Shown here one piece after another: positions 1,921 through 63,864 of a DNA stretch of 64,000 nt. Under the pieces are notes generated by a model. The model saw only the letters and a list, made by a program, of their open reading frames with translations, had not been told where the DNA came from and did not search any database. Source of the stretch: Capitulum mitella (lineage: Eukaryota; Arthropoda; Thecostraca; Pollicipedomorpha; Pollicipedidae). The stretch spans positions 10,576,144 through 10,640,143 of the forward strand of contig CP099849.1 of NCBI GenBank assembly GCA_030062745.1, read 5' to 3'. A program made the translations under genes and the position numbers. The first letter of the stretch is position 1. Every line of letters starts with the position of its first letter.

Positions 1921-3725
1921 TGGTGGCGAGGCGGGCCCTGTTGACAATGTCGGGATCAACCAATCTGGTCGTCATGGGAATAAACGTCCAGCGCTGGGCT
2001 GGAGCTAGCGATTCCGGAGCCTGATGATGGCTGCGGCATTCGATAATTATTTTCATCCGACACCCATGTAATGTTCGATGAGACTGGGACGACTTTTTGC
2101 GCAGAATAGATCAAGAACTTGACAAAATGGTTCTGATGCATTGGAAAAGAACCCCGGAGGCCTCAGACACTTTGCAAAGCTATTTCAGATACTAAACGGG
2201 AAAGTCGATGTTCTACGAGAAAACAGATTCTAAATGCAATTCCAGTCCTTAGAATCATGTACGACAGCAAAATCAACACCGGCCGTTTTCACGACTTCGA
2301 AAGCTTTCCATTCAGGGCACTGGAACAGCCTGAGTGAAGCGCTGGCAGTTCTGTTGATCGCTGAAGACGCTATCGCACGGTCTCAATCTAGCTGAAAAAG
2401 TGTCCCTACGGATTCAATATAGCCAAAGACGATGAGCTGCGCACCTTCCAAGTGAAACCCATACCATGTCGGACCGTAAAGCAAAAACGTTGCAAACCAT
2501 CGTTGTGTACCGAATGGCTCCAGTGTCTGAGAATGGAGCTGATGGGTTCAGCGAGGGGTTTCACCGTGACCGTGATGCCATGCTCGTAAAGTCAATTGAG
2601 TTTTCTGCGCAGCGGTGCCCAGAAACTACGTGTTTCACCCCACTGCTCGACTTATGTGCCGCGTTTGACTATCGCCAACAATCCGACTCCTCGGAGTCTC
2701 TTCGATAAACTGTAGAGGACGCTTCTTATCGTTGAGCTCTGCCTCATTCTTCCAGTCACACGCAGTTTATTGGATGTTGGCTAGACGTTTGGAGAAAAGG
2801 TCTTCGAACCAAATAGGTGCAGGTTTATTACGACAGCTTGATAGATACCCTAACAGGAACAGAAAGATATACAGAAAACGTTTTACTCAACAATCTGCGG
2901 CGAAAAGGTAGGTGCAAGGTTTCCATCAACAAAGGTTTTAACCTGCAGAATTCAATCTGTTTCGTTATTCTTCCACAACTGTGAGAAGATGTGGAAGCTG
3001 TGGACTTTGCAAAACTTGTGAAACTCGGAAACTGGTGCAACTTGTGGAATTTATGAGCCTTTGTTCAAAACCAGGAACGTAGGAAGATCCAAAAGAGTGT
3101 GGGAGGGGGTAGAGACGTTTTTCGCCATGGGACATTCCCCAGGGTCAATGTTAAATGTCCCAAAAGCGGAGGGCCATGGCCCCCGGTCCCCCCCCCCCCT
3201 TCCTACACCTACGTCAAGACACAGGCTGATCTGCCGCATATTCTCACACAATTGTGAAGCCACATGAGCCCTTTCCTTCGCACGTATGAAAGACGGCGAT
3301 ATGGCAATCTGGCAAGATTTGACACCACGAATAGAGCCAGCCGCTGCTACTCTTTGAATCCAACCCACACTTTTCTGTGTGACTTAGAACATAACAGTTC
3401 TCTTTGGCCAATGTCTTTATTACCATATTTTAACGCTTTTTTTCCAAGTTACCTGATTTGTCAGGACGTTGATTCTCAAAACAATTAAACTGACAAAAAA
3501 CTGAGACTGAAAATGTATACACGGTAAATCACATGTGTTGATCAACTGTTTTGTTTACTCCCCTCCTAGGCTCTATGGCGACGAAAGTAAAGGTTCTTTC
3601 TCCCCGTATGTTCCACATTTCCATTGACGCCTTCCTCCTCTGCATCCGTACAATGGCATGCTCCGTCTTCACGAGATCATGTCCTCTCCCTGCTGCCCCG
3701 GCCGATCCGCAGAGTTCTCAGAGGT
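1921..3725. other. Non-coding stretch, nothing recognised
   Basis: Only short open frames of mixed composition are present, with no splice-consistent exon or family motif. A run of 10 or more C lies near 3189-3200. Confidence 0.4.
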
Positions 3726-20474: not shown

Positions 20475-20519
20475 GTCAGAACACGTGGCCAGGTCAGTTC
20501 AGATCAGGTCAGAACAGGT
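20472..20519 (+). promoter_or_regulatory. Cluster of four candidate splice donors
   Basis: CAG|GTCAG occurs with junctions at 20474/20475, 20492/20493, 20507/20508 and 20517/20518. Only the first keeps exon 2 joined in frame to exon 3 without added residues. The copies sit in loosely repeated AGGTCAG-rich sequence, so they could be decoy or alternative donors. Confidence 0.5.
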
Positions 20520-21197
20520 CAGGCCAGGACAAGGTAGGTTAGCACGGCTAGGAGAGGCTCGTTTTCTGTGTTACCGCGACAAAGTTGGGCCGGAAAGTTG
20601 GGAGGTGGGGAGGGGAGGGGAGGGGACTGCCGTCTGGCGGCGTCACGACGAAGACCAGAGTCGGTGCTCGCAGCATCTCTCATGGCCGGCTGTGTTGGCC
20701 AAGTGATTTCTGAAGTGCCGCATTCTGTTCCTCAAAATAAAAAGCTTAACGTAATCCCAGGGTCAGGTTATTGGTCAAGCTGGAATCTAAAACCTTTGTG
20801 CAAACTGATAACATTAAAATACACCAGTTTCAATAATACATTGCAGAGTGATGTGGGCCAACATCCTTGCAGAGGCACCACTCCTCCTGTGGTTCTTTCC
20901 CTGTTCCTTCCTATTCCGTCATCACTTCTGCTCTGAACACACTTTTGGTGGCAAACCATTACAAAACTCATGCTTCTGGGACCTTTGGGCAATATTCTGA
21001 ATATATTTTGCAGAAATAAAGATTCAGTATTACTCAGTCACGGCATAGCTTCATGTCATTACTTTTATCTTTGTTATCCCCTAACGTGAAGGAGGGGATA
21101 GCTCCGTTTGCACGGCATGCTTGCACCGACGTTCTGCATGGCGTGTGAATTGGTTCGATTCTTGTTAATGTAAGCGAAGCTGATGCTATCGTTGCAG
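20520..21197. other. Intron 2 sequence, nothing recognised
   Basis: It contains a G-rich GGGGAGGGGAGGGG run near 20605. It ends in the acceptor ATCGTTGCAG before exon 3. Confidence 0.5.
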
Positions 21198-21337
21198 AAG
21201 ACGTTCGGTTGTGTCTGCTGCCCCGGCTGGTCCGGTCCTTACTGTGAGGTCCGCTGACCCCTGCACTTCGAACCCGTGCCCTGAGAACACCGTCTGCCAG
21301 CCTGCAGCCAGCGGCCACATCTGCGCCTGCTCTCAAG
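21198..21337 (+). CDS. Exon 3: end of EGF1 and most of EGF2, with a frameshift
   Basis: The acceptor GTTGCAG|AAG and donor CAAG|GTACTG bound the exon. In the frame set by exon 2 it reads KTFGCVCCPGWSGPYCEV, a clear EGF C-terminal half (C4, C5, C6 with one extra Cys). This frame then hits TGA at 21255-21257. One base over, the frame reads DPCTSNPCPENTVC and HICACSQ, the start of EGF2, leaving in phase 1 exactly as exon 4 requires. Both halves are excellent EGF sequence, so a one-base gain or two-base loss lies between 21246 and 21256. An assembly error is the simplest explanation; an inactivating mutation or unusual splicing is possible. Confidence 0.75.
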
Positions 21338-45912: not shown

Positions 45913-46071
45913 GTCGTCGGTAACCGCAGCAGCGTCTCCGTGGCGCGGCAGGTCAGTCCGTGTGACCTGGGCCAGCCGTGTCCGGAGAACAGCCGCTGCC
46001 TGCCTCGGGGGTCAGCTGTGCTCTGCATCTGCGATCCGACGGACGGCGATCCGAGGTGTCGTCGAGCTCAG
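45913..46071 (+). CDS. Exon 5: EGF5
   Basis: The acceptor GGTGTCACCAG|GTC and donor GCTCAG|GTCAGT bound a 159-base exon, phase 0 at both ends. After a 17-residue linker (VVGNRSSVSVARQ) it encodes EGF5, PCDLGQPCPENSRCLPRGS followed by VLCICDPTDGDPRC, with all six cysteines. The CPENSRC pattern matches EGF2 and EGF3, suggesting these domains arose by duplication. An internal CGGCAG|GTC acceptor at 45954 could start a shorter exon in the same frame, removing most of the linker. Confidence 0.82.
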
Positions 46072-47530: not shown

Positions 47531-49460
47531 CAGACTATGAACAGTCTTTGCATCACCCCTGTTTCCAAATCTCTCTGCGTACCCGGCACGAAAACAGGCG
47601 GAAGAATTCACTTTCCACTGCGGCCCTCAACTCGGACAATTTCCGAGCTTCATGAGCGCGACATACTCCTCAACCCGTCGCAACAGTTGACTGACTGCCA
47701 CGAATCATGGCGCGCCACGCAGAAGTCAGGTCACAACAGCTGACCCACTGCCACCAATCGCAGCGCGACACATAATGCCCGGCGCCAAACCGCACCGCCA
47801 TCTTCCCACCAACTCTAAACATTCGTGCTCGACCTCCACCACAGGTGGCAGTGTATTACCGGCCGCACGCTGACCCTAAGTCAGGTCAGACGCGCTCGCA
47901 AGGGTGGCAAAAGTCGCGAACAACCCTTTTGTATCACTGGCTGGTCAGTCCTCAGGCGTCAAGTAGTGCCGGAATCTGAGCAGTGGTACGATGATTTCGT
48001 TGCACTTTTTTAACGACCCAGAAAATATGCGCTTCCCATGGCAGGCTCGATCTCGCCACAGACAGAAGTTCTGCGGGGCAAGAGACGCCAGTGGCGGTCC
48101 CAGTTGCTCGAAGGTGGAAACCGAAAACGTTCTTGAGACTCAATGTGGTTCCAACGACGATAAAAATCGGTTTTTGTTTCGTTTGGTTTTAAAGATGTTA
48201 CTCTGAACCGTACCTCGCCTGGACTTTACTGATGGTTTTCTCCAGTAAGAATTTAAGGTATTCGAGACTTGATGCATCAAGGGAGGCCCAATCCACCTAT
48301 ACGGTGGATTGACATGAGGCGACCGCGTGATGTAGCTGACAATTGTAACTGTGTTTCGGGAGAAGAGTCGGGATTCCAGAGAATGGCCGCGGTTTTGGGC
48401 TCGCCTCGGTGTTCTGACACTGGCTTCTGACTGACATTTACCTCCGGACACAGTTTTGGATAGTTTCGTGAACCGCACTGGGTGGTTTGATTAGACCAGT
48501 AGCACCAATAGTTAGTCTGTCGGTTGTCATGGTGACGGAAGGCCTGTCGACTGCCGTATCGGCGTTTGCGTCCGTCGGAGCGCGTTCAAAGACGCTGTCT
48601 GATGGCTGTTTGGCTGCGTTGTAACGGTCAAGATCTTTGTACGGTCAAGGCGGCGCACGGCCCACGTTTCTACCGTGGGCACTGCGCCGTAGTGTTTGTT
48701 CTTTCTTGTGTCTCATTGTGTTGTGTCGTGTCTAAACAACATTGTATCTCAAGAAATCTGAAGTTAGAATTAAATATGTTATCCTTTCTGTGATGTATCG
48801 CCCATTACGGCAGACAAGTGGGTCATAGCTCCTTACAAAAATGTTAAGACCTTTCGCAATCACTCCGCAAAGTTACGCAATGCGCAAATAATTTTACGAT
48901 CCGTCAACCCGAGAAAAAAACACGATAGACCTGGACTACGTTTATCCAGTCATGTGAAATGCCAGACTGTCACAAATGATACCAGCAACAATGGTAGTAA
49001 TCAGTTCACAGTGAACTGCTAACTGGCTAACTGAATAACTGTTAACTGATTAAGCAGCTGAGTTACCAGTAACAGTCTGCAGGACGTTGAGATCATATTT
49101 ACATGTGTTGCAGAAATGCACTCCTAAAATATCCTCGATGTAGCATTACCGTTACAGCACGGCGAGATATTTTTTTCAGATCAACTGCATATTCTACAAA
49201 GTATTATTGCATCAATTAATTGGCTAATTTATACACGTGGAGTTAGAAATGGACGCCTCAGTGAGGCACGGTTGATAGCCCGGGGCTAGCCGGCTTCTTT
49301 TTCCTTCCCATTGGCCGTTAAGCCCCCCTCCCCTCGTTCCCAATGGAACCCCTACAATATCGGCTACCAGACGCCAACATGTGCGTTCTGCATCTGTGCC
49401 AAGTGCATAGTTTAATTGTGCACAGCAAGGTCATCGTCTGTGCTGTCTACAGGGCCGTCT
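47531..49460. other. Intron 5, right part
   Basis: A two-copy repeat of about 60 bp (CAACAGNTGAC, CACTGCCACNAATC) lies at 47680-47775. AATCCACC-TATAC-GGTGGATT forms a small hairpin near 48290. No exon was recognised. Confidence 0.4.
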
Positions 49461-49535
49461 CCAGGCACTGCCATTGTGGCATGTCAGTGCGCGCCAACTC
49501 ATCCGCGTACTCCTTTTCCAGGCGCTGCCATTGTG
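49461..49535 (+). repeat. Duplicated splice acceptor ahead of exon 6
   Basis: CCAGGCACTGCCATTGTG (49461-49478) recurs as CCAGGCGCTGCCATTGTG at 49518-49535 with one mismatch, a 57-base offset. The second copy is the real acceptor and first codons of exon 6; the first is an apparent duplicate of the same boundary. 57 is divisible by three, but the interval contains stop codons in the exon frame, so the first copy would not give an intact protein. Confidence 0.65.
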
Positions 49536-49633
49536 TACGATACATCCGTGCGCTAACGGTGGTACTTGCTGGGACGAAGGCAGCTCCTACTACTGCACCT
49601 GTACGCATGGCTTTACAGGAAAGCAGTGCGAAG
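49522..49633 (+). CDS. Exon 6: EGF6
   Basis: The acceptor TCCTTTTCCAG|GCG and donor GAAG|GTGAGG bound a 112-base exon entering in phase 0 and leaving in phase 1. It encodes [20 protein letters not shown] and [14 protein letters not shown], a canonical six-cysteine EGF repeat with HPCANGGTC and a G-F-T-G turn. It is the membrane-proximal EGF domain. Phase 1 exit matches exon 7. Confidence 0.87.
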
Positions 49634-50018: not shown

Positions 50019-50119
50019 TGCCGTCCGGTCTGATGGGCCACTTTGGCATCCACCACGTGCGCTCTGGACTGCCGGTGATGCTCACCCTGGTGGCGGCCGT
50101 GTTGATCTTCGTCACTGTG
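50019..50119 (+). CDS. Exon 7: juxtamembrane segment and most of the transmembrane helix
   Basis: The acceptor TTTCCCCAG|TG and donor ACTGTG|GTAAAG bound a 101-base exon, in phase 1, out phase 0. It reads VPSGLMGHFGIHHVRSG and then the hydrophobic run LPVMLTLVAAVLIFVTV. Spliced to exon 8 this continues VVYCYC before the first arginine, giving a helix of about 20-22 residues. Position after the last EGF and before a basic tail defines type I topology. Confidence 0.82.
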
Positions 50120-50659
50120 GTAAAGATCGGCGGGGGGAGGGAGCGAGTGGCACGTCACTGTGGCAAAGACCAACATCGTTGGGGGAGGAGAGGGGTGGGA
50201 CGAAGTCACTGAGAGAAGGGAGGGAGTGGAAACTACCGACGCAAGTTGTCCGAGTCCAGTAATAATATATATCCAATAACAAATTAATACCAAGCATTAT
50301 TCCGCTTGTTCTGAAATTTTCCATGGATGAAAATGGCTGCAGTTTGCTCTGACCAGTGCTCACTGTAGACTGCAGAACCTTTCCACGTGGCTCGCAATGC
50401 TTTGGCAGTTTCCGCACTTGCTGATGCACTGAGCGTCTCGTTTGTTCTCATTGCTTTGATAAAAAACCCGAGAACGCTGATACGAACTTCCTTTCTCTTA
50501 TTAGCGTCAAACATGACATCGCCTGTATGATGCTGTTCATTTGTACGCCTCATTATTAGTTCACTTATTATCGAAGGTTATCATGGTTAGTGAAATGTGG
50601 CGGGATTCGCCTCCTTTCTCCACAGATGTGGTACCGTTACTGTGAATGGTTCTTCCTAG
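50120..50659. other. Intron 7, left part
   Basis: Nothing recognised before the tandem array that starts near 50660. Confidence 0.5.
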
Positions 50660-51291
50660 ACAGGTGATGTGCAGGGATTGTGACCGGTCCCCTCTGGACA
50701 GGTGGTGTACTATTGCTGTGACCGGTCCCCTCTGGACAGGTGGTGTACTATTGCTGTGACCGGTCCCCTCTGGACAGGTGGTGTGCTGTTACTGTGGCCG
50801 ATCCTCTCTGGACAGGAGGTGCGCAGTTACTATATAACTGTTACTTTCTGAACAGGCGGTGTACTTTTGCTGTGTTACTGTTCGTATCTGGAAAGGTGGT
50901 GTACTGTTACTGCGACGGTTTCCATTTGGACAGGTGGTGTACTGTTACTGTGACCGGTCCCCTCTGGACAGGTGGAGTACTGTTACTCGTGTATGCCGGT
51001 TCCCTCTGGATAGGTGGTGTACTGTTGCTGTATTACTGTTGTTATCTGAACAGGCGGTGTACTTTTGCTGTATTACTGTTCTTATCTGAACAGGTGGTGT
51101 ACTGTGACTGCGACCGGTCTCCTCTGGGCAGGTGGTGCACTGTTCATGTGGCCGATCCTCTCTGGGCAGGCGGTGCGCTGATACTGTATGGCTGTTACTA
51201 TATGGACAGATGGCGTACTGTTACTGCACGACTGTTGCTTTATGGACAGGTGGTGTACTGTAGCACTGTATGACTGTTACTGTTTGAACAG
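50660..51291 (+). repeat. Tandem array of 16 copied splice acceptors (38-42 bp units)
   Basis: Units run head to tail into exon 8. The AG of each lies at 50663, 50701, 50739, 50777, 50815, 50855, 50895, 50933, 50971, 51013, 51053, 51093, 51131, 51169, 51209 and 51249; the true acceptor is at 51291. Spacing is 38, 40 or 42 bases. Each unit combines GTGGTGTACTGTTACTG, identical or nearly so to the first codons of exon 8, with a pyrimidine-rich segment ending ACAG. Two subtypes are visible: GACCGGTCCCCTCTGGACAG and a TTACTGTTCTTATCTGAACAG-like form. The 177-codon open frame through it (50740-51273) is made of the repeat. Confidence 0.9.
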
Positions 51292-51413
51292 GTGGTGTAC
51301 TGTTACTGCCGCGCTCTGGGGCTGCGCCAGGCTCTGGGCCGCTGCTGGCGGCCGCTGAGGAGCTGCTTCACCGTCGCCCGCTGCTGCAGGAAAAAGACGT
51401 ACAAACAGTTTAG
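51292..51413 (+). CDS. Exon 8: end of transmembrane helix and cytoplasmic tail
   Basis: The acceptor TTTGAACAG|GTG opens this exon in phase 0. It reads VVYCYCRALGLRQALGRCWR, then PLRSCFTVARCCRKKTYKQF. The first residues finish the helix begun in exon 7; the rest is a short basic cytoplasmic tail with six or more cysteines near the membrane, candidates for palmitoylation (inference). Two endings are possible. Reading on gives R and TGA at 51415-51417. Splicing at the strong donor TTTAG|GTGAGA (51413/51414) joins in phase 2 to exon 9. The exact ending needs transcript data. Confidence 0.75.
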
Positions 51414-54276: not shown

Positions 54277-57200
54277 TGTTCAGGCAAAAGCCTCTCTGTC
54301 GATCTGAAAAGCGCAGAAGAGTGCTGCTGCGCCACCAGAGGTCTCGAGTGACTTCCAACCTCGACTTCCAACCTTTCGGCGAGGGACTTATGTATGTGTC
54401 AAAGTGCGAAGTCATCGTAGTTCGATGCTCTGAATTCTTCCACTGACGGCGCTGAGAGTTTTATCGTTTTAAGTGCTGAAAATGGTTGGTGATAAAGCAT
54501 GGATTCTGGTATTCAAAAGTTTACACGGTCCTGTACTAAGCAAGGAATATGAGCACGTAAAACCAGAGCCGTTTTTCATTTGCCATACACAGTTTTAGCC
54601 TGTTCCTAAAACGTGCATCAGCGGACAATTTTCGTTTGCCTCTGCCTCGCTGGTGTCATTTACTTCAACGGGAATTTTAGGGCTGTTGCCCTGTTCGGGA
54701 GTGTTTGTTATCGCACCGTTCTGACCTGTTGCCGCTCAATCTTACGGTGACCGGACCCCAGACCCCGGAATATTTGGCCCTTTTGATTCGTCTGGTCGGT
54801 TATCTGATTCACCCTATGTCACTTGAAGAAAAAGAGACTGAATTTGACTGGGAATAAGCGCTGAAACGATTTCACGAGCAAATCATGCTGGAACGATATG
54901 CATTGAAGAAACTCAGTTAAGTACAGATCATCCTTCAAGCCCCGTTCAGGTATCCCGAAAAAGTGAAAAGCAAAATTTTGTTCGTTTTAAGCGCTTTTTC
55001 TTAACGCTGTTTGTTTTTTCACAACTTGAATTTTTTTAGTCATCCATAGTGTAATAATACACCGGCCCGGAGTCGGTTGTCAACAGCGAATGGTCTGAAT
55101 TTTCCAGATCAGGTGGGAATAAGGTACACAAGGCCTGCTAGATTATCATGTTCTAACGATCGATCACCACCTGGTCTATCCTTAATCTCGCGGCAAACGA
55201 GCATTGCAGGAGTTGTTGCTTGGCTGCCGCAGCCGGCGGCTGTCGGGGTATTCGGGCGAGCGTCGCTTGCCGCCATTGGGAAAACCCTTACTACCGGCAC
55301 AGCGACGCCCGACCTGAGCCCACTTATCATTTGTTTCAGTGAGGATCAACGGAAGAACCTCCTCGAGATGGGATATTCACAGACTCATCAGCCGATAGTG
55401 GAGCCTATTTTCGGCGAGTTGGACCAATCGGAAGCCGCAGGGACGCCTTTGATAACGTGATCCGATGCACCTGCCATCTATCAAGGGAAAAGACACATGA
55501 CGCTGTGGCCGATTCCGCCTGGCGTCTCCACCAGCGCCGCGTTCCGGCCTCGTTTTCGCCCCGGCGCAGCGGTGAGCGGGATTCCGCTGACGCCGACGAC
55601 GTTCCTCTGAGACTGCTGTCGCGGTTCGCTCTAATGCCTAACTAAGGCGACCGATGGCTGCCCGTATGCTTCAGCTGTCAAGTGCCTCAGCGATGTCGCC
55701 GGTGCAAGTCCATAGCGCGCTTAGTGCTCCAACGCAGCGGCCCAAAGCCGAAATGAAAGGATCGCGCCCGGTGGAATTGCTTTCGGAGGCAGCTGGGCGT
55801 AGTTTGTTCGCGAGTTAATCTCCGGAGAGGATGCTATTGAGCGGATGCCTGGAGAGAATGAAATCTATCTACGTTATCCAGAGGTGCTGCTGTCGTTTTA
55901 CGGCAGGCTGTTGACAAGATGAACCCGTGGTGTTTTCTGTCATGTCGATGGACGAAGCGCCGCAAGAGGCCAAAAAAGAAAGAGAGAGATATAGTGGAAG
56001 GGGAGGGAGAGAATAGTGCTCTATCTCTGCTAGCCCTGGCCCAGGCGTGAGCAAAGCCAGGGATCACGAATCTTGCTTAGTTGTTCGCAGTTATTGATCT
56101 CATGTACGCGTATTCTCTACACGTTCGAGAAATGTAACGCATAAATGTCGTTGAACTGATGTCCCTTTTATTGATTTGGTTTAAATTCCTGAAAAACTGT
56201 TCTACAACTTTTGACTTCAACAGGCATTCCTTGCTTTCAGGTTGTGCATCTAGGACTTATAGGAAGCCGTAGCTCAAAAAGAAAACATTCCCTCCGCAAC
56301 GGTAGAGCACATTCTAGCATTGCTCACGATGAAACAAGTATTAATTGTATAATGGTTTTGGGATGAGTAGTTGTAGGATTTTAATCATCTAAAGCCTCAT
56401 TACATTCATAAATAAATAAACATCACTTAGTTTGAATCATATAGAGGCATTTACCACCATCGATATACTGCGCAAAGTGTTGCGTCGTGTAAAAGCCAAT
56501 CGATTGATTTCATTCACAGCGCGATTCAACATTCCTAGCCCTAACGGTCATGACTTCGAGTCGTGTTCGTTTTACTGAGGGTCGGTGTGACATTGTTACT
56601 ACTACTTCGCTGCATCCTGAGCAGGCAGTTGCCTGTTGAGTCTCTCGTGCTAAAGAAAAATGTTTAGGCGTCTGGTAACGGAGAAGATTGGAGCACGCAA
56701 CCGATCAGCAACCTATTCTGGCTAAACGAGGTTGTAAGGTGGAACTTCAGCGGCCTTTCGTACCATCTTTGTAGCCTGTTCAGGGGAATGATCCACTTTT
56801 AACATGTGTTCAAGGCCGAGACAGCACAGCCGCAATACGCGATTTTTCTTGTCGTTCTTGAGTCCCACTCAGCCAGATCCTTCCAGCCATTGTTGACTGG
56901 GGGGCGGGCCAGTGGCTGTAGAAATAGTTTGTAGAAGGTTTGTGTTTTATCATATTAGCGGATGATTACAAAATGTTGTTTTCAGTTCATTACCATGGGT
57001 GTAGGACTGGGGCACATTTTGGTATGGAAAAGTAAATTCGAATCCTAAAATGTGACATTGGTAACGTATTTACAGTACTTCAATGTGTAAAGCAAGAGAA
57101 CACATGAACAAGTGAAGATACTGGTGTGGAATACCATACCAATAAATTTGTTTGGTATGGAAAGCTCCATACCAAAGGTATACAAAATTGCGCCGCTATT

Positions 57201-61656: not shown

Positions 61657-62775
61657 CTATAGCTTCATCTCCCAGAGCACCAGGTGGGCGTCGCGAGCGT
61701 TAGCGGCGCGCGCCGCCGAGCCCTTCCGGTCGGCGGGGCTCCAGTTGACGTAGCCCCTGCCGGCCATGACGGTTAGCACGCTGCGCGCCGGCTCCTCCTT
61801 GGTTCGGCCGGCGGCCGGGCCGGCCGGGCCGGCTGCCTCCGGCGTGCGGAACGACTGGACGCGCGAGGCCGGCGCCGAGTGGGCCCGATCGCCCTCCGAC
61901 GACGAGCTGGTCGTCTGCGCCGACGAGCGCGAGTCCACCGACCAGCTGGAGAGGTCCAGCGAGCGCGGCCGGCCCACGCGCAGCTCCAGCCGCCGGTCGA
62001 GCGTGGCCATCTTGTGCGGCAGGCCGGACAGCTCCGGGTCGCTGCGACGCAGGTGCTCGCTCAGGTCGCCCAGTTCGCGCGCCTCATCGAAGCCGTGCAG
62101 GTTGAGCAGCTCGCCGTACAGGCCGTACACGTCGTCGCAGATGCTGCCGCTGGCCGACGGCAGGCCGAGACCGCGCGGCAGCGTCTTCGAGAGGCGGCGC
62201 TGCATGCCGTCCCGGTCCCGCGAGCGCTTCCGCAGCAGCGAAGGGCTGCTGAAGCGCGGCGGCAGGCGGACGCTCTTCTTCGAGTCGCTCAGGCTGGTGT
62301 CTGAGCGCCGCTTCTCCAGGAGACGGCCGGACGCGTCGGCCGGCGCCTCCTCGTGGATGACGCTCTCGCGGTGGGCGGTCGGCGCCAGGGCGCGCGGCGT
62401 CGGCGCGCTCAGCACCTGCAGGTAGGTCACCGGGCCGTAGTGGGCGTGGTACGAGATGTTGCCGCGGCCGGAGATGATCGGCACGCCCTCCAGGCGCGGT
62501 AGCGGGATGGTGAGCGTGACGCCCACGCTGGTGCCGACCCAGAGCAGGCCGCGGCCGGCCAGCAGTGCCGTCACCGTCACCGGCGAGCGCAGCGTGTCGC
62601 CCATCACGCGCGAGATGTTCGACGCCACGTTGATGTCCTGCAGGTGGCGGAACGTCTCCGTGTGGTACAGGCAGATGGTGGAGCTGTGCGCCAGGGAGAT
62701 CCACAGGCCGATACCGCTGTGTGCCAGTAGGTGCACGTCGCCCGAAGACTCGTGCTCTTGTACAGTGAAGCTCTT
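61657..62775 (-). CDS. ARHGEF10-like Rho GEF, last exon
   Basis: On the - strand the acceptor TCTGTCCAACAG|AAG opens the exon in phase 0, and TAG at 61659-61657 ends it, 372 codons. It reads KSFTVQEHESSGDVHLLAHS, GLWISLAHSSTICLYHTE, TFRHLQDINVA, LLWVGTSVGV, PLPRLEGVPIISGRGNISYH and AHYGPV. These segments are diagnostic of the C-terminal WD40-like propeller of ARHGEF10-family exchange factors, which activate Rho GTPases. About 190 residues rich in Ser, Arg and Pro follow, probably disordered. The protein ends SVLTVMAGRGYVNW and AHLVLWEMKL, matching the closing strand in the family. The DH and PH domains lie outside the window. Confidence 0.88.
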   Translation of the reverse strand, partial: KSFTVQEHESSGDVHLLAHSGIGLWISLAHSSTICLYHTETFRHLQDINVASNISRVMGDTLRSPVTVTALLAGRGLLWVGTSVGVTLTIPLPRLEGVPIISGRGNISYHAHYGPVTYLQVLSAPTPRALAPTAHRESVIHEEAPADASGRLLEKRRSDTSLSDSKKSVRLPPRFSSPSLLRKRSRDRDGMQRRLSKTLPRGLGLPSASGSICDDVYGLYGELLNLHGFDEARELGDLSEHLRRSDPELSGLPHKMATLDRRLELRVGRPRSLDLSSWSVDSRSSAQTTSSSSEGDRAHSAPASRVQSFRTPEAAGPAGPAAGRTKEEPARSVLTVMAGRGYVNWSPADRKGSAARAANARDAHLVLWEMKL

Positions 62776-63304
62776 CTGTTGGACAGAGCAGATACCATGT
62801 TACACGGATGTTCCACGGCCAAGAACGTTATACCACAAAGGACTAACACAATAACTGCTTTTATCACCGTTTTCTTGGTCGAGGCACTCCATTCGTCGGG
62901 TATGAGCAGGACGTCCAATCCAACAGAACAATAGTTCCAACCTAGTGAATTCTCTTGAGATCAACTGCGAGTAAAATATGATGTGAAGAAACCGAAACAA
63001 CCAGGTCTCTCAAAATAATGTAACGTCCAATGTGCATTGCTCATGAGATGATGATGACTGGGTTTTACACAGCACTTTGGCTTCTGTGGCCATTTCGTGC
63101 TGATGGCTCATGAGAAATAATTATCATCGTCAGAGATGGAAATGACAAGCAAACATCAGGCATGCTATCGAGAACTCGACGTGCAAAACAACTGATGATT
63201 AACTGTCAAGCCGCGTTTACAGCATTCTTCTACAACCGCAAGCATTGCCTCGCTCTCTGTTGACCACAGCAGGCCATCCCTCCCTCGGTGACACCAGCGC
63301 TTAC
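62776..63304. other. Intron of the ARHGEF10-like gene
   Basis: 529-base intron with donor GCG|GTAAGC (complement of 63304 downward) and acceptor CCAACAG. No other feature was seen. Confidence 0.7.
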
Positions 63305-63599
63305 CGCGATCTCACGCGACATGACGTCGATGACGGACACCTGACGTCCACAGCCGGCGTACACAGCGCCGCCTATCGGCAGCAGGGAGGAAACAGGACC
63401 GGTCCCGAGCGGCAGCAGCGCGGGCTCGCCCGGCAGCCAGCCGCCGTCGGGGGCGCGGTCAAACGCCGCCACGGCGCCGCACTCGAGCGCCGCGAACACG
63501 GCGTCCCCGAGCGGCACCAGACGGCGCGCCGGAGACGAGAGCGGCGCGGCCGCCGTCTGCTGACAGTGCTCCGGGTCCTGCGCCGAGTACTGCAGCAGT
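63305..63599 (-). CDS. ARHGEF10-like Rho GEF, penultimate exon
   Basis: The acceptor CGTCCGCAG|A and donor ATCGCG|GTAAGC bound a 295-base exon, phase 2 in and phase 0 out. It reads LLQYSAQDPEHCQQTAAAPL, then LVPLGDAVFAALECGAVAAF, LPIGGAVYAGCGRQVSVIDV and MSREIA. The hydrophobic repeat pattern of beta strands and the GGAVYAGCGRQVSVID segment fit one or two blades of the propeller. It joins the next exon as VIDVMSREIA-KSFTVQ in frame. Confidence 0.82.
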
Positions 63600-63864
63600 C
63601 TGCGGACGAGGCGCGCCGTCAGACGGCACATAACGTGAAGCAGGACAAGTGAGCCCAGCCAAGCTCCAGATGTTGCGAGCGCACATGGTGATGTTATGCG
63701 GCTGGTGATATCGATGCAAGGAAGAAGATAGTGTGTAAATAATTACATGGTGCAGAAACAGGCAACTTGCAAGCGACTGTCCACAACTCACGAATGACAT
63801 TAAAACACTTCCCTGCTTGATCAAAATGCATTCACGGAAGAATGAAGTATGCCGTGCACCCGAC
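63600..63864. other. Intron of the ARHGEF10-like gene
   Basis: 265-base intron; donor AGCAG|GTCGGG and acceptor CGTCCGCAG on the - strand. No other feature was seen. Confidence 0.65.

Follow-up and report, generated by a model that had tools for sequence, protein, structure and literature searches.

Intron 7 of a gene that we identify, by homology, as encoding a DNER-like EGF receptor ends in a minisatellite whose repeating unit is the intron–exon boundary itself, such that 18 tandem copies, each made up of a 3′ splice site plus opening codons of the exon, run into exon 8 on the + strand of the stretch of DNA analyzed here (64,000 nucleotides, hereafter the window, numbered from its first letter). 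In structure, the array is a mirage, that is, its units span the boundary and 18/18 retain the acceptor AG, and the best-supported reading is that this mirage is a neutral one, probably tolerated by the gene and not regulatory. This reading is built on direct observation of the array, of its reading frames, of the homology of the last copy, and of the absence of coding constraint on the copies upstream.

The Gene and Its Exons

The best match of the spliced + strand exons is a partial protein of the barnacle Amphibalanus amphitrite (48% identity over 74%), which is named delta and Notch-like EGF-related receptor, and the EGF domain, membrane helix, and tail predicted here are as in that protein, from which we take the gene to be a DNER-like EGF receptor. 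The genome is that of an arthropod, with 150 scored matches to a cuticle domain that all exceed the cut-off, and in view of the best match above the host is probably a barnacle as well, of a species other than A. amphitrite. The exons around the array, numbered as in the first-pass annotation of this DNA, are as follows:

49522..49633, + strand: exon 6, EGF domain; read as phase 0 in, phase 1 out
50019..50119, + strand: exon 7, membrane helix LPVMLTLVAAVLIFVTV; donor GTG/GTAAAG, with a score under all 102 sampled donors
51292..51413, + strand: exon 8, end of the membrane helix and cytoplasmic tail; donor TTTAG/GTGAGA
55340..55460, + strand: exon 9, coding part (EDQRKNLLEMGYSQTHQPIVEPIFGELDQSEAAGTPLIT plus stop)

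When exons 7, 8, and 9 are joined using the last copy of the array (51291), they align with the A. amphitrite protein over 114 residues at 62% identity and with no gaps, which points to the last copy as the acceptor of exon 8. On this homology, the fallback offered by the first-pass annotation, namely that the last copy alone is productive, appears to be right. When the search was confined to the tail, the A. amphitrite protein was the lone match among 758 candidates, and a genome search found no second locus matching exons 7–9.

No exon bearing the start codon was located for this gene. Exon 5 (window positions 45952–46071) is EGF-like, of phase 0–0, and has a good acceptor score; at an E of 0.001 it finds no counterpart in the protein of A. 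amphitrite, and it may be an optional or a false exon. Exon 3 (21198–21337) has a frame break near position 21245, between two EGF halves, which could be an assembly error, a polymorphism, or damage. Elsewhere in the window, the minus strand carries at 61657–63742 the exons of a gene with a WD40_2 domain (PF19056), which may be a RhoGEF of the ARHGEF10/17 kind.

Structure of the Acceptor Array

In a register anchored on the acceptor, the 18 copies start at positions 50622 to 51288 and span 50622–51291, and the 17 intervals between them measure 38 bp (nine), 40 bp (six), or 42 bp (two). Tandem Repeats Finder (TRF) calls the array at 50693–51308, with a period of 38, 15.6 copies, and a score of 396. 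The features of the array are the following:

50622..51287, + strand: array of 17 acceptor units (38, 40, or 42 bp) 5′ of the putative productive acceptor (TRF and acceptor-anchored register)
50622..50659, + strand: copy 1, diverged, with its AG ending at 50625; strongest pyrimidine tract (15/16) and highest acceptor score (11.0)
50698..50773, + strand: copies 3 and 4, identical; recent duplication within the array
51288..51291, + strand: last copy, ACAG; homology-supported acceptor with a weak score (2.44, approximately the 5th percentile of 102 acceptors)

The first-pass annotation had described 16 units of 38, 40, or 42 bp from position 50660, which is correct, and the extra, diverged copy lies 5′ of these at 50622. 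Its description of the unit as a 3′ splice site with the first codons of the exon also holds, as each unit contains a pyrimidine tract, an AG, and the exon-start codons; the sequence GTGGTGTACTGTTACTG, which it had placed in every unit, is exact in only three of the 18 (copies 8, 9, and 18), the others carrying variants of it. Agreement with the consensus is 25/38 in copies 1 and 2, 29–35/38 in copies 3–17, and 33/38 in copy 18 at the 3′ edge. In lancelet mirages, inner units are homogenized and edge units diverged, a pattern that would fit the 5′ edge here but not the 3′ edge. Mean column conservation is 0.74 at positions −21 to −5, 0.94 at −4 to −1, and 0.86 over the first 17 exonic bases. 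The invariance of the AG gives a faint hint of constraint, but seven of the 38 alignment columns are invariant, only two of them being the AG itself. Twelve of the 18 copies read AG/GT; when these are treated as donors, none scores above the 11th percentile of the sampled set of 102, and the exon 7 donor scores below most of them, while GT is absent from the other six.

The copies share a mean pairwise identity of 71% over the 38 nt compared, and copies 3 and 4 are the sole identical pair. The array is real and, its copies being diverged in this way, not an assembly stutter. It shows higher-order blocks of five units, with copies 5, 7, and 8 similar to copies 10, 12, and 13, which fits block duplication. 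When the flanks were resampled at equal dinucleotide frequencies, an equally good match to the boundary arose in 0/300 cases. Among the best candidates scored in a genome search for the array motif (at most three mismatches), 10 of 11 matches fall at this locus, and the DNA of exon 8 has a single match in the genome.

Predicted Products of the Upstream Copies

Translation through any of the 17 upstream acceptors ends at a premature stop after 3 to 177 residues, 140 to 746 nt short of the exon 8–9 junction, and no upstream copy reads through to exon 9. With no stop closer than 140 nt to that last junction, transcripts using the upstream copies are expected to be targets of nonsense-mediated decay. 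The helix LPVMLTLVAAVLIFVTV comprises 17 hydrophobic residues encoded in exon 7, and thus all 17 alternative products would keep the membrane anchor and drop the cytoplasmic tail, so that the “anchor-less” forms previously proposed are not supported. As had also been proposed, the frame varies between copies, and that of copy 4 stays open for 177 codons before meeting a stop ahead of exon 8. Few reshuffled arrays have a frame of this length: the 183-codon open frame of the array to which it belongs is reached by 191 of 5000 shuffles of unit order and 28 of 3000 column shuffles.

Over the first five codons, copies 1–17 differ from copy 18 by one synonymous and 38 nonsynonymous changes, a tally that counts a change again for every copy sharing it and to which we therefore attach no p-value. 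Compared with the 9 synonymous and 36 nonsynonymous single changes that are possible in these codons, it gives no sign of protein constraint on the upstream copies.

Splice-Site Strength and Alternative Readings

The acceptor and donor matrices were built from 102 introns of kinesin, TCP-1, and myosin genes of this genome, defined in 37 of the 40 loci fetched, these introns being the ones that passed a splice score that rewards pyrimidines, with hits of unfetched genes and some of those of fetched genes left out. The p450 genes could not serve as a source of introns, since many of them consist of one open frame in this genome, while other gene families are intron-rich.

On this scale, 13 of the 17 upstream copies score above the weak last copy, and 7 of the 17 exceed the median of the sampled acceptors (8.7). 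The strong copies are those at 50625, 50701, 50739, 50777, 50971, 51131, and 51169. The decoys may thus be used. The donor of exon 7 scores 1.94, lower than all 102 sampled donors. We note that the weak last copy, the very weak exon 7 donor, the 183-codon frame, and the invariant AG all count against a neutral mirage, and that strong decoys beside one weak productive site leave a small chance for a regulatory reading. One such reading, which we consider unlikely, is that the donor of exon 7 is captured by the strong copies upstream, so that most transcripts go to decay and copy number sets the dose of full-length receptor. The scores of the upstream copies and of the exon 7 donor, together with premature stops from 17/17 upstream copies, speak in its favor. 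However, the matrix derives from conserved genes and from introns selected in part for pyrimidines, the exon 2 and exon 9 acceptors of the same gene are likewise low (−0.28 and 1.02, respectively), and exon definition would be expected to prefer the short exon of 122 nt obtained with the last copy over those of 164–788 nt obtained with the upstream copies. Quite improbable, in turn, is the rheostat version of this idea, in which length alleles of the acceptor minisatellite would set the amount of full-length DNER-like receptor through the competition of a ladder of strong, always unproductive acceptors with one weak productive acceptor for a weak donor.

It is also distinctly unlikely that the array is tolerated only for the reason that the gene, or this allele of it, is damaged and has ceased to matter. 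The frame break in exon 3 and the two weak splice sites flanking intron 7 would agree with such damage, but the frame break may be an assembly error, exons 7–9 retain their gap-free similarity to the A. amphitrite protein, and the genome search showed no second locus for these exons.

Retention of the helix in 17/17 alternatives and the unusually long frame of copy 4 would also suit a receptor with alternative tails, in which some upstream copies would be productive and give membrane-anchored forms with other tails, short or long. We regard this as very unlikely, however, in view of the failure of all 17 copies to reach exon 9, the distance of their stops from the last junction, and the lack of coding constraint on the copies. 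Finally, although a single assembly was examined and its count of copies may not be exact, false multiplication of one boundary in assembly is scarcely credible for diverged copies with one identical pair and ordered higher-order blocks.

Other Duplicated Boundaries

Four of the 15 boundaries tested in the DNER-like gene have a local duplicate matching at least 17 of 24 positions, the 15 leaving out the exon 3 acceptor and including an exon 5 probe that is 3 bases off. The best duplicates are those of the exon 8 acceptor (21/24), the exon 6 acceptor (21/24), the exon 7 donor (18/24), and the exon 2 donor (17/24), and none of these four scores was reached in 300 resamplings of the flanks per boundary. 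Those outside the array are located as follows:

49455..49478, + strand: duplicate of the exon 6 acceptor with its first codons, 57 bp upstream of the original and identical to it at 21/24
50111..50225, + strand: exon 7 donor GTCACTGTGGTAAAG (50111) and decayed second copy GTCACTGTGGCAAAG (50154; 18/24)
20475..20531, + strand: short CAGGTCAG-type donor-motif repeats starting at the exon 2 donor

A putative third copy of the exon 7 donor near 50205 matches at 13/24, which is the chance level, and neither the exon 6 nor the exon 7 duplication is called by TRF. In the genome sample, 24-nt probes with at least 17 matches were found for 3/102 acceptors and 7/102 donors (10/204 in total), as compared with 122/1530 random positions in the sampled loci, and we therefore reject boundary duplication as a genome-wide habit. 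Among random positions of the window (n = 3000), 6.1% reach 17 and 1.8% reach 21. The 4/15 of the DNER-like gene differs from the genome sample at a Fisher p of 0.0096, and when the array is excluded (3/14), at p = 0.041, the exon 2 donor at 17 being no better than the 7/102 sampled donors. Against the low rate in the genome sample, duplicated boundaries appear to be concentrated in the DNER-like gene, and support for this is modest when the array is not counted. The clear second copies at the exon 6 acceptor and the exon 7 donor speak for the mirage reading. As a separate observation, the acceptor of one TCP-1 family intron (L037, acceptor at 3578) recurs 165 bp upstream, the two copies being identical over 24 bases.

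Origin of the Array and Comparison with Known Systems

We propose that a tandem duplication of the intron–exon boundary in intron 7 founded the minisatellite, which would then have grown and turned over through slippage or unequal exchange, slippage being the presumed origin. The upstream copies would be intronic and not kept up as coding sequence, the last copy, at 51291, being the one that productive mRNA would take. An mRNA made with any of the others would encode a receptor lacking its tail, would carry a premature stop, and is expected to be degraded. On this account, the array is most likely harmless.

Minisatellites at boundaries are a rare but already described kind, and the arthropod case is new. 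The comparisons that follow draw on excerpts of the cited papers. In lancelets, mirages are described in Adh3, the globins BflGb6 and BflGb9, TnC, and PGBD5, where they span acceptors, and regular splicing is reportedly undisturbed (PMC3087553, PMC3902484). As here, these are minisatellite-like tandem duplications of an intron–exon boundary (in BflGb6, of the acceptor and exon start), and many of their units retain the splice signal, as the AG is retained in the present array. In contrast to the 18 copies of 38–42 bp in this arthropod, the BflGb6 haplotypes have 6 and 3 units of 150–160 bp, while the units of the Adh3 mirage measure 10–72 bp.

In human IFI6 (6-16), a splice site at the end of an exon is likewise the unit of a minisatellite, which supplies several splice donors (Turri 1995, cited in PMC4526556), although the site repeated there is a donor rather than an acceptor, and transcripts using two downstream units are reported. 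The polymorphic 31-bp VNTR of human CBS, c.1444_1467+7(16_21), has 16–21 copies (PMC2630376) and, judging by its name, is a tandem repeat over an exon–intron boundary, apparently on the donor side; unlike the present array, it comes with population data. Internal tandem repeats at exon–intron boundaries are also described in human duplicated genes (PMC2812944), with units of approximately 30 bp at exon edges that can create introns or alternative splicing, but these average four units and belong to recent paralogs, whereas exon 8 is present here in a single copy. In Drosophila, also an arthropod, introns have reportedly been gained through tandem duplication of AG/GY proto-splice sites (PMC2891723), which resembles the AG/GT reading of most copies here, but involves single duplications in coding exons that give new introns rather than an extended array ahead of an acceptor already in place. 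This is the nearest arthropod work among the papers listed in literature searches on repeated acceptors and on barnacles, which included no arthropod acceptor minisatellite.

Implications

With 17 similar, graded acceptors before one true exon, this locus is a natural experiment on the choice of 3′ splice site by the spliceosome, in which the conserved site, the last copy, is among the weaker-looking acceptors of the ladder. If the array is a mirage, minisatellites at intron–exon boundaries are not peculiar to chordates, and such arrays offer raw material from which new introns, or differences in expression between individuals, could arise.
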